Shown here: positions 28,363-31,992 of the stretch, one piece after another
Position numbering within the stretch: position 1 is the first letter of the stretch
Layout of the letters: each line of letters starts with the position of its first letter
Source: Nostoc sp. CENA543
GTDB taxonomy: Bacteria > Cyanobacteriota > Cyanobacteriia > Cyanobacteriales > Nostocaceae
Length of the DNA stretch: 64,000 bases
Direction of reading: 5' to 3'
Assembly: GCF_002896875.1 (NCBI RefSeq)
Contig: NZ_CP023278.1
Coordinates: 1,054,001 to 1,118,000, forward strand
Notes under the pieces: generated by a model
What the model saw: only the letters and a program-made list of their open reading frames with translations
Databases searched by the model: none
Told to the model about the DNA's origin: nothing
Made by a program: the position numbers and the translations under genes

Positions 28363-28500
28363 GGGAGTGAGTGCTGAGTGCTGAGTAATGAGTAATGAGT
28401 AATGAGTAATGAGTGGTGAGTTGGGAAATAAATTCTACCTTGTCTACCTTGTCTACCTTGTCTACCCTGTCTGCCTTCCAATCCCCAGTCCCCAATCCCC
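28363..28500. repeat. STRR arrays upstream of dnaX
   Basis: GAGTGCT/GAGTAAT heptamers (about 28366-28420), then TTGTCTACC nonamers (28438-28475), then CCCCAGT/CCCCAAT heptamers (28480-28508). A TCATTAG array also lies at 27436-27463. Such contiguous short tandem repeats are characteristic of heterocystous cyanobacteria. The rest of 28183-28752 shows no gene. Confidence 0.85.
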
Positions 28501-28752
28501 AATCCCCAGGCTGTCTTTTTAGTAATAAGAGTTCAAGGTCAAAGAATAAAACTGGTATACTGATCAGGTTTTTGGTCTTTCAATCACCAAAGGCATTGCA
28601 TTTTTTTTTAGGGACTTCCAGAAAATAAACTATTCAATAAGTCAAAACAAATATTCTTATTGCATTTTTCCTCCCCTGCTCCCTCTACTACCCCTGCTCC
28701 CCCTGCTCGCCGAAGCAATTGTATATTTTTTAGTTGGAAGTCCGTTAGCCCC

Positions 28753-31700
28753 ATGTCTTACGAACCCCTGCACCACAAGTATCGCCCAAAGAGTTTTGCT
28801 GAACTGGTGGGGCAAGAGGCGATCGCTACCACTCTGATTAATGCTATCTGTTCAGCGAAAATTGCACCGGCTTATTTGTTCACTGGCCCTAGAGGGACAG
28901 GTAAAACTTCTAGTGCGAGGATTCTGGCTAAGTCGCTCAATTGTCTCCAAAGCCCTCAACCTACGGCTGAACCCTGCGGAATTTGTGATGTTTGTCAAGG
29001 GATCACCAAAGGTTACTCCCTAGATGTAATTGAAATTGATGCGGCTAGTAATACTGGTGTTGATAATATCCGCGAATTGATTGAAAAAGCCCAATTCGCT
29101 CCGGTGCAGTGCCGCTATAAAGTTTATGTGATTGACGAGTGTTTAACAGGAGATTCACTGGTTTTAACTACTGAAGGTCTGGTGAGAATTGATGATCCCA
29201 ACATCAAGGGCAAACAAGTCCTCAGTTACAATGACTCATTACAAAAGTGGCAATTCAAAAAAGTCCTCCGGTGGTTAGACCAAGGTGAACGCGAAATATT
29301 ACGTATCAAGACCACTCGCCAAGAAATTAGATGTACGGGAAATCATTTAATTAGGACAGATCAGGGATGGATACCAGCAAGAAACGTCAAAGAAGGAGCG
29401 AAGATACTATCCCCTGTGAATGTGGCTGCGGCAACCTCATTTACAAATTTGGCACAGATGGACGTGTCCGCCGATTTGTTTCAGGACACCAGTTCAAAGG
29501 CAATACCTACGGGAAAAAATCGTACAACCTGGAATATATTTTGCAACAGGCGGAGTTACTCCGTCCCTTGTGTGCCTGTGGCTGTGGAGAAAAGCTCGAT
29601 TTACCAGGCTTTCTACAAACAAAAGGCAAAGGAATTAAAAGTATACAGTCTCACTGGGAAAGACACCCATTCAAAAAAGGACACGGAATTTGGATTAAGC
29701 GCACAGAAAACTTTATTACCACAGCTGAAGTTATACAGCCAGAGATACTCGGACTTATTTACGGAACACTACTTGGGGATTGTTCCATCATCTATCCCAA
29801 TAAACACAGCAGATTCCCCAGATTGGCTTGGACACACGCCGAAAATCAGCTTGAGTGGTCTGATTACAAAGTATCTCGGCTACAAGTATTACGACCAACA
29901 CGACGCTTCACCACTAATCAGGGATACGGTAAAAGTTCCATCACTAGCAACACCTGTTGTCATCCCCAACTTAAAGATGTCTTTGACATCGTTAGAGCCA
30001 ATGGGGATAAGAAAACCGTCTCTTGGTCTTGGCTTAATCGAATTTCACCAGAAGGACTTGCTTGGTGGTACATGGATGATGGCTCACTCAGCCTTTCTCC
30101 AGCAGGGAGTCCAAGAATTCAATTGCATACAGAAGGATTTTCTGCCACAGAAAATCAAATCATTGCCAATTGGCTCACAACAATCGGATACCCAGCAGAA
30201 ACAAAGTCATACACCAGAAGTAGAACAGGAAAGCACTACCATTACATATCTATGGGCGCAAACACCAGTAGAAAATGGCTGGCAGACCTTAAACAGTATG
30301 CAATACCCTCAATGGATTACAAGTTTGGAACAGGTCGAATCTGTTCACCTCGCTGGAATTGAGCGAGTATATGACATTGAAGTTGAGGATAATCATAATT
30401 TTGTAGCCAATGGGCTTTTAGTTCATAATTGTCATATGCTCAGTAGTGCAGCGTTCAATGCGCTACTAAAGACATTAGAAGAACCACCTAAGCACGTAGT
30501 GTTCGTACTGGCGACAACCGATCCACAGAGGGTATTACCCACCATTATTTCTCGCTGTCAAAGGTTCGATTTTAGACGTATTGAGTTAGGGGCGATGGTC
30601 AAGCATTTAAGTGCGATCGCCGCTAAGGAAAATATTAATATTTCACCCGAAGCTGTGACTTTAGTAGCTCAACTTTCCCAAGGGGGATTGCGAGATGCGG
30701 AAAGTCTGCTTGACCAGTTGGCTTTATTACCAGGGGAAGTCATACCCGAAAGAGTTTGGGATTTGGTGGGTTCAGTCAGCGAACGGGATTTGTTGGGATT
30801 ATTAACTGCGATCGCCCAAGATAACGCCGAAGTAGTATTAGAACAAACTCGCCAAATTTTAGATCGGGGTCGAGAACCACTGACGATTTTGCAAAATCTT
30901 GCAGGTTTCTACCGTGATTTACTGATAGCAAAAACCGCACCCAACCGCCAAGATTTAGTAGCCTGCACCCAGCAAACGTGGAAAGCACTAGTTGATTGCG
31001 CCCAATCTTTACCCGTCAGTAATATTTTGCTTGGTCAAAAGCACTTACAAACCGCCGAAGCGCAAATTAAAAACACCACCCAGCCCAGGCTATGGTTAGA
31101 GGTGACATTACTAGGACTCTTACCGAGTGCTAATATACCATCGGTTCATACAGGCGTATTACCTGTTATTTCCCCCAGCGACCAGCGTTTATCCACTCCG
31201 CCACAAATACCAACTCCCAGAGTCACCCCAACGCCACCACCACCTCCACCAGTTACGCCTTCCCATCCACCCATCCCAGAGGAAAAAGTAGCCCCTGTTG
31301 CTTCATCACCCTTACCTTCCCCGACTCCAGAAACACAGCCTGTAACACCCAATTCCTCACCGCCACCTACACCAGAACCTGTTGCTACAACACAGTTAGA
31401 TTTAGGGCAAATTTGGCAACAGGTATTGAATAATATTCAGCAAATACCCAGACGGGCTTTATTGGGTCAAATGTGCCATTTGATTGAGTTTGAGGGTAAT
31501 ATCGCTCGTGTTGGTGTCAAACCTGTGTGGTTTGATAAAGTAAAATCTGATATACCGATGATTACGGCAGCTTTTCAACAGACCGTGAATCGGGAAGTGC
31601 AAGTCACTCTAGAAAAAGCCAATATATCAACTCCCTCCACAGTCAAGAAAACACCGCCAGTTAACGGTAATGGTACGGCTAATAGTTCACCCACTGTCAA

Positions 31701-31992
31701 GCAGTCCCCTGCACCCAGTTACAATAACCACCAACCAGCTACACCACAGCCACCCCCAGTCACACCCACACCAGCCAAACCCGAACCCCCAGCCAGTAAA
31801 GCCAAAACACCAGACCCCCCAACCAGTGAACCACCGATAGCTAATTGGGAAACCGATGAAGTAGCGATCGCTGCCCAACGTTTGGCACAATTTTTTGATG
31901 GGAAAGTGATCCGATTTACGGATGATGGAGAGGAATTATCAGAAATCACTACATCTGATTGGGTTGATGAAGTGGTAGATGATGATTTTTAG
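28753..31992 (+). CDS. dnaX: DNA polymerase III subunits gamma/tau (DnaX) precursor containing an intein
   Basis: DnaX is the clamp-loader ATPase of the replicase. Start chosen at ATG 28753 (MSYEPLHHKYRPKSF, the conserved DnaX start), not the in-frame ATG at 28660. Walker A is GPRGTGKT (45-52); the zinc Cys are C64, C75, C78 and C81; Walker B is VIDE, interrupted after Glu129 by the intein (residues 130-559). The sequence resumes CHMLSSAAFNALLKTLEEPP, then sensor 1 (FVLATTD), the clamp-loader lid, a long Pro-rich linker and a C-terminal tau-like domain (IWQQVLNNIQQIP...). Precursor 1079 residues; spliced DnaX about 649. Because the intein splits the ATPase site, DnaX needs splicing to work. 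Confidence 0.96.
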   Translation: MSYEPLHHKYRPKSFAELVGQEAIATTLINAICSAKIAPAYLFTGPRGTGKTSSARILAKSLNCLQSPQPTAEPCGICDVCQGITKGYSLDVIEIDAASNTGVDNIRELIEKAQFAPVQCRYKVYVIDECLTGDSLVLTTEGLVRIDDPNIKGKQVLSYNDSLQKWQFKKVLRWLDQGEREILRIKTTRQEIRCTGNHLIRTDQGWIPARNVKEGAKILSPVNVAAATSFTNLAQMDVSADLFQDTSSKAIPTGKNRTTWNIFCNRRSYSVPCVPVAVEKSSIYQAFYKQKAKELKVYSLTGKDTHSKKDTEFGLSAQKTLLPQLKLYSQRYSDLFTEHYLGIVPSSIPINTADSPDWLGHTPKISLSGLITKYLGYKYYDQHDASPLIRDTVKVPSLATPVVIPNLKMSLTSLEPMGIRKPSLGLGLIEFHQKDLLGGTWMMAHSAFLQQGVQEFNCIQKDFLPQKIKSLPIGSQQSDTQQKQSHTPEVEQESTTITYLWAQTPVENGWQTLNSMQYPQWITSLEQVESVHLAGIERVYDIEVEDNHNFVANGLLVHNCHMLSSAAFNALLKTLEEPPKHVVFVLATTDPQRVLPTIISRCQRFDFRRIELGAMVKHLSAIAAKENINISPEAVTLVAQLSQGGLRDAESLLDQLALLPGEVIPERVWDLVGSVSERDLLGLLTAIAQDNAEVVLEQTRQILDRGREPLTILQNLAGFYRDLLIAKTAPNRQDLVACTQQTWKALVDCAQSLPVSNILLGQKHLQTAEAQIKNTTQPRLWLEVTLLGLLPSANIPSVHTGVLPVISPSDQRLSTPPQIPTPRVTPTPPPPPPVTPSHPPIPEEKVAPVASSPLPSPTPETQPVTPNSSPPPTPEPVATTQLDLGQIWQQVLNNIQQIPRRALLGQMCHLIEFEGNIARVGVKPVWFDKVKSDIPMITAAFQQTVNREVQVTLEKANISTPSTVKKTPPVNGNGTANSSPTVKQSPAPSYNNHQPATPQPPPVTPTPAKPEPPASKAKTPDPPTSEPPIANWETDEVAIAAQRLAQFFDGKVIRFTDDGEELSEITTSDWVDEVVDDDF
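29140..30429 (+). other. DnaX intein (430 residues, in frame with DnaX)
   Basis: The intein starts with Cys1 (CLTGDSLVLTTEG, block A) right after VIDE. Block B has T66 and H69 (TGNHL). It ends with block F (VYDIEVEDNHNFVANG) and block G (LLVHN), followed by Cys+1 of the C-extein (CHM). All residues for standard Cys/Asn protein splicing are present. Intein residues ~1-90 and ~400-430 form the splicing domain. Residues ~90-400 in this frame look like no known domain, because the DNA there encodes a homing endonuclease in another frame. The in-frame central translation has no stop codon. Confidence 0.95.
29367..30362 (+). CDS. LAGLIDADG homing endonuclease encoded out of frame inside the dnaX intein
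   Basis: 331 residues, in a different frame from dnaX and wholly inside the intein. Two zinc-finger-like CxCGCG segments come first: CECGCG at 17-22 and CACGCG at 69-74. Each is followed by a conserved GH further on (SGH, KGH). Then two LAGLIDADG helices: EILGLIYGTLLGD (126-138) and EGLAWWYMDDGSL (229-241), with acidic ends D138 and D237/D238. WYMDDGS is typical of the LAGLIDADG_2 type known from group I introns. The frame is closed upstream by TAG at 29352-29354. AGGA (29353-29356) lies 10 nt before the ATG, so internal translation start is plausible. Such enzymes cut intein-less alleles to spread the element. Confidence 0.9.
   Translation: MDTSKKRQRRSEDTIPCECGCGNLIYKFGTDGRVRRFVSGHQFKGNTYGKKSYNLEYILQQAELLRPLCACGCGEKLDLPGFLQTKGKGIKSIQSHWERHPFKKGHGIWIKRTENFITTAEVIQPEILGLIYGTLLGDCSIIYPNKHSRFPRLAWTHAENQLEWSDYKVSRLQVLRPTRRFTTNQGYGKSSITSNTCCHPQLKDVFDIVRANGDKKTVSWSWLNRISPEGLAWWYMDDGSLSLSPAGSPRIQLHTEGFSATENQIIANWLTTIGYPAETKSYTRSRTGKHYHYISMGANTSRKWLADLKQYAIPSMDYKFGTGRICSPRWN

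Follow-up and report, generated by a model that had tools for sequence, protein, structure and literature searches.

The intein of the cyanobacterial clamp-loader gene dnaX carries a nested gene for a LAGLIDADG homing endonuclease of the I-SceI type, placed in the −1 frame relative to dnaX and not fused to the splicing domain. We put the probability of this reading, in which the endonuclease would be made as a free enzyme that supports homing and the intein would splice as a mini-intein, at roughly 85%. The window, here the whole stretch of 64,000 nucleotides from Nostoc sp. CENA543 that was analyzed, holds one copy of the element (L002) with the following features.

28753..31992, + strand: dnaX, taken to start at ATG 28753 (MSYEPLHHKYRP); the ORF list instead has an upstream TTG at 28660
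28753..29139, + strand: dnaX N-extein (clamp-loader gamma/tau, through ...YVIDE), from a TIGR02397/PRK14948 match
29140..29430, + strand: N-terminal splicing half of the intein, residues 1–97 (Cys1, T66/H69), from PF14890 and TIGR01445
29367..29369, + strand: putative endonuclease start ATG, lying within the intein Gly-Trp codons (GGA TGG), from the sequence
29367..30362, + strand: LAGLIDADG homing endonuclease, 331 residues plus stop, frame +2 (= −1) versus dnaX, from the ORF, PF03161, and predicted fold
29415..29693, + strand: two Cys-rich CxCGC modules, endonuclease residues 17–46 and 69–109, with Cys/His invariant in alignments A1 and A2
29431..30303, + strand: predicted disordered spacer, intein residues 98–388 in the dnaX frame, open and unconserved, from pLDDT ≈25 and dN/dS
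29742..29780, + strand: LAGLIDADG motif 1, residues 126–138 (...GLIYGTLLGD), D138 invariant in A2
30051..30089, + strand: LAGLIDADG motif 2, residues 229–241 (EGLAWWYMDDGSL), D237/D238 invariant in A2
30304..30429, + strand: C-terminal splicing half of the intein, residues 389–430 (block F, His-Asn), from TIGR01443
30430..31992, + strand: dnaX C-extein, first residue Cys+1 (CHMLSSAAFNALLKTLEEPP), from the sequence and a profile match

The N-extein ends in what we take to be the Walker B motif. The dnaX frame of the insert matches PF14890 (6.8e-15), TIGR01445, and TIGR01443; these matches and the translation bear out the boundaries that an earlier note, made from the letters of the window, had given for an intein with its splicing motifs in the dnaX frame. 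The splicing blocks of a class 1 (Hint) intein are complete (Cys1, TxxH, terminal His-Asn, and Cys+1), with C1, T66, H69, H429, and N430 invariant across the 26 sequences of intein alignment A3. AlphaFold models the N-terminal half with pLDDT mostly >90 and the C-terminal half with pLDDT ≥90, and predicts disorder for residues 98–388. Because the splicing motifs are intact and activity of a Synechocystis DnaX mini-intein has been published, the intein would be expected to excise itself and join the exteins.

The endonuclease reading frame begins at an offset of 227 nt. As the same note had proposed, it encodes a 331-residue LAGLIDADG protein on the same strand, with both motifs where they had been placed, and the suggested Pfam comparison with LAGLIDADG_2 (PF03161) returned 3.8e-21 (76.2 bits against a cut-off of 25, residues 130–272). 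The catalytic acids, the two motifs, and, in the predicted structure, the family fold are all present; that structure resembles I-SceI and I-WcaI (target TM 0.72–0.75, with a sequence profile match of ≈1e-7) and has PI-SceI among its fold matches. The CxCGC modules, which range in number from one to three among copies, are probably zinc-binding modules that contact DNA. An Rfam search of L002, which includes the entire element, gave no match at the gathering threshold, and we rejected a group I intron-encoded endonuclease on this ground. The enzyme would cut the empty dnaX site and drive homing, to which empty alleles and identity patterns point only indirectly, and from the second frame it probably helps the insert to spread.

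This arrangement extends well beyond the source strain. From many genera of cyanobacteria we collected 63 distinct DnaX inteins of full length (at least 374 aa), and in all 63 the best endonuclease match lies in frame +2; one copy (L135) has an extra 5.6-bit match in the dnaX frame, as against 560.7 bits in +2. None of the 27,143 dnaX-frame codons of this set is a stop, and the third frame carries 14 to 39 stops. The aligned endonuclease is interrupted by a stop in eight of the 63, with a further broken copy (L186) flagged outside this count. Searched without the endonuclease as bait, 388 class-wide genomes gave 51 places, spread over 50 of the genomes, that were taken as DnaX inteins (E ≤2.8e-30), and no in-frame endonuclease was found among the 50 places that were examined (46 resolved, four read), the remaining one being L013, collected earlier. 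Nine loci whose boundaries motif search did not return were excluded from the counts (L056, L063, L103, L110, L139, L147, L175, L187, and L188); all except L056 have a long open dnaX frame, and contig ends cut L063, L139, and L175. Also excluded were the non-DnaX loci L025, L026, L027, L030, and L097, and L001, which repeats the window.

In the window copy, the dnaX frame is stop-free through the whole intein, with 19 stops in the third frame over the overlap. Shuffling synonymous codons of its endonuclease produced a mean of 8.2 dnaX-frame stops (0 of 2000 shuffles stop-free), and the reverse shuffle a mean of 14.1 (0 of 500). Over 43 copies, a subset of the 63 also used for the start-codon and Shine–Dalgarno counts below, shuffles that preserve the endonuclease protein gave a mean of 5.8 dnaX-frame stops, with 37 of 86,000 stop-free, and reverse shuffles a mean of 14.2, with none of 21,500 stop-free. 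The view that both frames are kept open beyond chance is thus upheld by codon shuffles, which supersede the figure of 1e-7 first obtained from a uniform-codon model. In four relatives that occur as separate ORFs, the corresponding alternative frame holds 20 to 28 stops for every 330 codons.

The two frames are constrained in different ways. Per-frame dN/dS, proposed in the earlier note, is 0.18 over endonuclease codons 26–305, 1.20 in the dnaX frame over this greater part of the overlap, and 1.44 in the third frame; in the splicing halves, it is 0.09 (intein residues 1–75) and 0.03 (residues 409–430). The 34 unbroken copies of equal length form 561 pairs, and these values derive from the 371 whose nucleotide identity is 0.70 to 0.92. 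Within the overlap, variability moves from the third position of dnaX codons to that of endonuclease codons, and after the overlap it returns to the former. In the 41 of 43 copies of equal length used for entropy and identity, endonuclease identity exceeds that of the dnaX-frame middle in 820 of 820 pairs, and amino acid conservation of the middle is 0.529, versus 0.525 in the noncoding third frame. The endonuclease frame is under selection at the protein level, and the only constraint detected on the dnaX-frame middle is the avoidance of stops. In its conservation and its predicted disorder, the middle of the intein does behave like the by-product linker that had been suggested.

These data bear on three other readings. 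An error of sequencing or assembly, or compensating indels in one strain, might have displaced an ordinary in-frame endonuclease; we found no support for this, and the homologues refute it, independent assemblies from many genera repeating the same frame in 63 of 63 distinct full-length copies. The endonuclease frame could instead be a functionless relic of an old insertion, with the dnaX frame alone of importance, as the eight interrupted copies and the partial deletion of many DnaX inteins might suggest. Against such a relic stand the low dN/dS of the endonuclease among unbroken copies, the invariance of the motif Asp residues in the 33 copies of A2 (selected as unbroken), and the 55 full-length copies without a stop in the aligned endonuclease, which also run counter to the picture of homologues full of stops named in advance as telling against two maintained frames; a relic is very unlikely. 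Slightly less likely still is a function for the dnaX-frame middle as a domain in its own right, such as a splicing regulator, with the endonuclease frame secondary to it: the middle is stop-free in every copy examined, but it is no better conserved than the unused third frame, evolves with a dN/dS of 1.2, is predicted to be disordered, and is missing from many natural DnaX inteins.

How the endonuclease would be translated is a separate matter. A start-like codon is found at the position of ATG 29367 in 43 of 43 copies; another, 12 codons upstream, occurs in 41, with an in-frame stop cutting it off in 36 of the 43. Selection on this start codon was rejected as evidence: GGA, required for the ATG, is present in all 20 unbiased mini-inteins (≤174 aa) and, among 33 shortened inteins, in 29 (the other four having GGG, hence GTG; L064 and L095 could not be anchored), so the ATG is not diagnostic, since mini-inteins without the endonuclease retain GGA-TGG too. 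Nor did we detect relaxation of the N-terminal overlap after endonuclease loss, the third-position ratio in mini-inteins being 0.78 versus 0.82. A Shine–Dalgarno-like 4-mer precedes the ATG in 25 of 43 copies, compared with 181 of 860 random places, a comparison confounded by an intein Arg codon. Alternatively, ribosomes translating dnaX might slip into the −1 frame, which would yield a fusion of N-extein, N-terminal intein half, and endonuclease, and no free protein. The endonuclease does sit exactly in the −1 frame, and an in-phase X-XXY-YYZ heptamer lies at intein nt 150–345 in 31 of 58 copies, 25 of these having it at nt 305, mostly as A-AAT-TTG. However, the heptamer is absent from the other 27, the common one falls at about endonuclease codon 26, downstream of conserved residues, and is explained by Lys-Phe codons, and the constant place of the ATG also speaks against this route. 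With no heptamer common to all copies, we rejected a programmed frameshift, and consider frameshifting in general unlikely.

The element is patchily distributed, and its two frames decay asymmetrically. It occurs in 37 of 388 order-wide genomes and in two of 13 genomes of the window's genus, its own included, and dnaX alleles without an intein exist. All 51 distinct shortened DnaX inteins are free of dnaX-frame stops. Extein and intein identities, compared for 42 of the 43 copies (L050 being too short), show an overall correlation of 0.89, as under vertical descent. Compared with eight Nostoc copies, L006 (its intein that of L035; Dendronalium) has intein identities of 0.90 to 0.93 and extein identities of 0.80 to 0.82, L010 is intermediate (0.85–0.87 and 0.80–0.82), and L003 has 0.76 to 0.78 and 0.81. 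Tree conflict was rejected as evidence of transfer. In AU tests, the exteins reject a Chroococcidiopsidaceae–Microcoleus grouping (p-AU 0.002), but the inteins are compatible with an extein-like one (0.45); the exteins are compatible with a grouping of L006 and Nostoc (0.34, 0.25), and the inteins with Nostoc minus L006 (0.54).

Phages and plasmids harbor related layouts. An identical one (intein, open host frame, and out-of-frame endonuclease) is found in a helicase of Xanthomonas phage FoX3, and phages near-identical to FoX3 have the helicase without the insert; 260 of 10,000 codon shuffles of the FoX3 host frame are stop-free, which makes the open frame alone weak evidence. The FoX3 endonuclease matched, among viral contigs, itself and four contigs with the endonuclease as a separate ORF, and the DnaX endonuclease profile gave a single weak N-terminal match there, L097, which is not a DnaX locus. 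Pectobacterium phages Ymer and Amona have a split intein whose two ORFs are both overlapped by a related, out-of-frame endonuclease, which is in the same relative frame as in DnaX. Judging by the matches listed, three more phages would belong with these two. Relatives are in frame in RNA-ligase genes of phage KLEP7 (738 mod 3 = 0) and a Miltoncostaea plasmid (864 mod 3 = 0), form a separate gene in Escherichia phage ES, and are included in a single long frame in L153 (LR756508). Serratia phage MQ-4 reads DECHH and has no insert.

We propose that reading of the dnaX frame would give a DnaX precursor with two folded splicing halves and ≈290 disordered residues between them, and that excision of the intein would restore normal DnaX. 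The internal ATG over the Gly-Trp codons would provide the free endonuclease from the same mRNA, so that one locus would make two separate proteins. This enzyme would cleave dnaX alleles that lack the intein, at the insertion site or close to it, and the element would be copied in during repair. DnaX is essential, and no stop would therefore be tolerated in its frame, whereas homing would preserve the protein sequence of the other. When homing ceases to be of use, decay or deletion of the endonuclease would follow, solely by changes that keep the dnaX frame open. We suggest tentatively, and at somewhat less than even odds, that mobile inteins have, in addition to their fused and split forms, a third architecture in out-of-frame nesting, and that this is the step from which split inteins originate; the widespread DnaX inteins and the FoX3 helicase intein, recently gained or lost, would be two members of it, and a stop gained in the host frame would leave a split intein with the endonuclease overlapping both halves, as in Ymer and Amona. 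The route toward split inteins is testable. The locus offers a clear natural example of bacterial overlapping genes: across great evolutionary distance, a cellular replication gene keeps ≈330 codons open in two frames, and the constraints are cleanly separated, one frame being held to its protein sequence and the other only to freedom from stops. The endonuclease lives in an intein outside the spliced protein, and each can therefore evolve or be lost alone. Gene finders that bar long overlaps likely miss it.

Liu and Hu are said to have published a paper on the cyanobacterial DnaX intein in 1997. An engineered Ssp DnaX mini-intein was scored +++ for splicing in E. coli, and Ssp DnaX was classed with inteins having putative (complete or partial) endonuclease domains (PMC3620165, in the portions available). 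The portions available of three DnaX-intein papers, PMC3620165 included, make no mention of an out-of-frame gene, and the excerpts of the literature matches listed contain no description of an out-of-frame endonuclease inside an intein. The final sentence of PMC11855218, in its available text, cites refs 7 and 53 for overlapping reading frames, ref 53 being Gorbalenya 1998, Non-canonical inteins. That work may contain an earlier account of an intein and an endonuclease that overlap, which we count as a real risk to the novelty of the arrangement.

In canonical bifunctional inteins such as PI-SceI, too, a single insertion point holds both a splicing domain and a LAGLIDADG endonuclease; theirs is in frame and fused, whereas the DnaX endonuclease has an ATG and a stop of its own in the −1 frame, and no full-length DnaX copy departs from frame +2. 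Fractured genes, in which Dassa et al. in 2009 reportedly described split inteins accompanied by a homing endonuclease, are alike in placing an endonuclease gene between two intein halves, as Ymer and Amona do, but in all 63 copies the dnaX frame runs on without interruption, and such an intein would work in cis. The splicing domain is that of Spl DnaX (PDB 7cfv; match 2.5e-58). I-SceI and I-WcaI are alike in fold and sequence profile but are intron-encoded, whereas the DnaX endonuclease lacks an Rfam intron and has Cys-rich N-terminal modules. Finally, in the ShiLan insertion of phage methylases, as given in the available text of PMC11855218, the host frame is also open and a hidden endonuclease is read on the same strand in a different frame; that endonuclease is of the HNH type, and the insertion, found in phage, has no splicing domain and is not thought to splice, unlike the DnaX case, in which a complete intein surrounds a LAGLIDADG enzyme and the replication gene that hosts them is cellular.

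In the window, dnaX carries an in-frame intein and, in another frame of the same strand, a LAGLIDADG endonuclease, arranged as follows (coordinates from the sequence).

28753-31992, + strand: dnaX
29140-30429, + strand: intein inside dnaX, open in the dnaX frame
29367-30362, + strand: 331-aa ORF in the +2 (= -1) frame relative to dnaX, matching LAGLIDADG_2

The splicing-domain models PF14890, TIGR01445, and TIGR01443 match the dnaX frame of the intein above their curated cut-offs, and the out-of-frame ORF matches LAGLIDADG_2 at 3.8e-21, the search proposed in the earlier note; it is the only LAGLIDADG_2 match in the genome (genome search, E 0.001). The positions and motifs which that note had assigned to the intein and endonuclease proved correct by sequence and domain matches. 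Short tandem repeats (gagtaat and ttgtctacc-like units) are found at 28380-28510, directly upstream of dnaX.

A protein search of 149 relatives recovered the whole-length endonuclease from 11 other genomes (58-82% identity) and the endonuclease whole, in pieces, or as distant relatives from 35 of the 149 in all. Scanning named genomes yielded 65 loci, spread over Nostoc, Anabaena, Calothrix, Microcoleus, Planktothrix, Microcystis, Leptolyngbyaceae, and further cyanobacteria. In these two sets we resolved 77 DnaX inteins that are distinct from one another, of which 43 are full-length and 34 shortened. The endonuclease is opened by an ATG in the +2 frame in all 43 full-length copies (intein nt 227 in 42, nt 230 in one), none of which has a stop in the dnaX frame; the third frame, used by neither protein, contains 13-27 stops over the overlap. 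One to three premature stops interrupt the endonuclease frame in seven copies (L007, L011, L042, L043, L044, L048, and L052).

Because the named-genome scan used endonuclease patterns and is biased towards endonuclease carriers, we turned to an unbiased sample, using a 138-aa mini-intein to query 388 genomes drawn evenly across the class. We took 51 places in 50 genomes as DnaX inteins (E up to 2.8e-30); one (L013) was already in the set, 46 were resolved by motif, and four were read by eye. Nineteen of these 46, the window's included, are 376 aa or longer; in all 19 the endonuclease reads in the +2 frame while the dnaX frame is free of stops. An endonuclease trace is absent from two of the 46 motif-resolved inteins (L133 and L140), and what remains in the other shortest inteins is largely the part overlapping the splicing domain. 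An order-wide search, positive in 37 of 388 genomes of the order, added further copies. In the final recount, 63 distinct full-length copies (374 aa or more) have 0 stops in 27,143 dnaX-frame codons, with the best endonuclease match in the +2 frame in 63/63; the check across cyanobacterial DnaX inteins which the earlier note had proposed thus finds the out-of-frame endonuclease in every full-length copy. A stop falls inside the aligned endonuclease in eight of the 63, and 51 distinct shorter inteins likewise have 0 dnaX-frame stops. The 376, 452-454, and 512 aa length variants, together with L187 and L188, differ in how many Cys-rich CxCGC modules they carry, from one to three, and gain or loss of a module leaves the dnaX frame open. 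These modules are N-terminal in the endonuclease (variants L138, L141, L146, L136, L137, L142, L145, L187, and L188). One genome (G228, contig 8; L147) contains a second, divergent dnaX-like gene that also bears the intein; the out-of-frame endonuclease ORF there is shorter.

The double open frame exceeds chance expectation. When synonymous codons were permuted within each endonuclease of the 43 copies, with protein and codon usage kept, the dnaX frame acquired a mean of 5.8 stops and 37 of 86,000 shuffles were stop-free, with not one in 2000 for 30 of the copies. The reverse shuffle of dnaX-frame codons gave a mean of 14.2 endonuclease-frame stops and 0/21,500 stop-free, and in four separate-ORF relatives the corresponding frame is interrupted by 20-28 stops per 330 codons. 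The 43 copies are related and are not 43 independent draws, but their nucleotide divergence of up to about 40% leaves room for stops to arise despite this kinship.

Patterns of entropy, identity, and dN/dS reveal that the endonuclease frame is maintained as a protein and the dnaX-frame middle (intein residues 98-388) merely as a stop-free stretch. In the N-terminal splicing half, variation is greatest at dnaX codon position 3 (entropy 1.19); inside the overlap it shifts to endonuclease position 3 (0.98 versus 0.53 and 0.37), returning to dnaX position 3 past the endonuclease stop (1.06). Mean protein identity is 0.72 for the endonuclease, 0.529 for the dnaX-frame middle, and 0.525 for the unused third frame, with the endonuclease above the dnaX middle in 820/820 pairs. 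Simple dN/dS, which is biased where genes overlap, was computed separately for each frame as the earlier note had suggested and is 0.18 over endonuclease codons 26-305, versus 1.20 in the dnaX frame and 1.44 in the third frame, with 0.09 and 0.03 in the splicing halves (371 pairs). Overlap bias alone would not be expected to yield one conserved-looking frame and one resembling the unused frame.

In AlphaFold models, intein residues 1-97 and 389-430 are mostly at pLDDT above 90 and residues 98-388 at about 25. The endonuclease model (mean pLDDT 80.9; first eight and last nine residues below 50) has I-WcaI (E 8.1e-12) and I-SceI (E 3.7e-11) as structural matches, with a target TM of 0.72-0.75; the endonuclease profile also recovers I-SceI at the sequence level. 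The low-pLDDT endonuclease tails are among the parts overlapping conserved splicing-domain codons. The core of the endonuclease would thus lie mostly over spacer, with disordered tails covering the splicing core, which plausibly explains how the two frames can coexist.

The endonuclease ATG is the sole start-like codon fixed at one place in 43/43 copies; another start-like codon is present 12 codons upstream in 41, but in 36 of the 43 a stop closes the frame less than 12 codons before the ATG. The GGA-TGG that forms this ATG is likewise retained in 20/20 endonuclease-less mini-inteins (those no longer than 174 aa in the series L098-L124, plus L133), and its conservation is thus no proof of start-codon use. 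Production via a frameshift is possible, but no frameshift signal is common to all copies. Splicing of the window's intein is predicted: an engineered Synechocystis DnaX mini-intein splices strongly in E. coli (PMC3620165), and the DnaX intein profile matches the solved structure of the Spl DnaX mini-intein (7cfv).

The intein is patchy, with the endonuclease in two of 13 genomes of the window's genus, its own included, and insert-free dnaX junctions are common among the matches listed (e.g., genome G007, all 92 residues at 100%). Intein L006 (the same intein as L035, Dendronalium) is 0.90-0.93 identical to eight Nostoc copies at an extein identity of 0.80-0.82; L003, at the same extein distance, reaches 0.76-0.78, and L010 (0.85-0.87) and L009 (0.82-0.84 at extein 0.78-0.80) are intermediate. 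Counting against mobility, the overall correlation between extein and intein identity is 0.89, and transfer is not separated from descent by tree tests. Weighing patchiness, empty junctions, and the excess intein identity of L006 against these two results, we consider homing in cyanobacteria likely from sequence comparison.

A second host gene comes from Xanthomonas phage FoX3, which among phages matches the endonuclease best (33% identity, 8e-28). The match sits within gp40 (L148:1959-4325), which one record labels a helicase and the other head morphogenesis. gp40 harbors an in-frame intein (PF14890 at 5e-11, TIGR01443, and TIGR01445; context LWDE-C...HN-CHH). Its endonuclease reads in the +2 frame, offset from the host gene just as in dnaX; where dnaX has the ATG, the corresponding Gly-Trp codons contain a GTG, although the open frame extends upstream beyond it. 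With 260/10,000 shuffles stop-free, the open host frame of FoX3 is by itself statistically weak, and its weight derives from the shared layout. By coverage and length, five related phages (Murka, FoX5, FoX2, FoX1, and M29) have an insert-free helicase 96.9-99.5% identical to that of FoX3 over the shared 60%. The junction was read in Murka only and matches at 300/300 bases upstream and 294/300 downstream, where the first three bases compare the intein's last codon with an extein codon owing to the flank cut. Because these near-identical helicases lack the insert, the comparison points to recent gain or loss of the FoX3 intein.

Inteins, LAGLIDADG enzymes, split inteins with endonuclease genes, and out-of-frame endonucleases in phage genes (the last in PMC11855218) are known already. 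We found no description of a complete intein enclosing an out-of-frame LAGLIDADG gene in the literature searched; since a sentence on overlapping reading frames in PMC11855218 cites Gorbalenya 1998, there is a real chance that such a case has been described before.

In-frame relatives of the endonuclease occur in RNA-ligase genes of KLEP7 and Miltoncostaea. As annotated, Pectobacterium phage Ymer (L159:1617-4727) has a helicase with a split intein: a first ORF holds the helicase N-part plus the intein N-half, a LAGLIDADG homing endonuclease follows, and a last ORF holds the intein C-half plus the helicase C-part. Read in the +2 frame, the endonuclease overlaps each flanking ORF, and between these the host frame contains many stops. 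Amona (L160) has the same order and frames per its gene table, and the further Pectobacterium phages Koroua, Abuela, and Sabo are among the matches of the hit list. This broken layout hints at nesting of an endonuclease out of frame as a possible intermediate on the way to split inteins, and it resembles the fractured-gene arrangement reportedly described by Dassa et al. in 2009.
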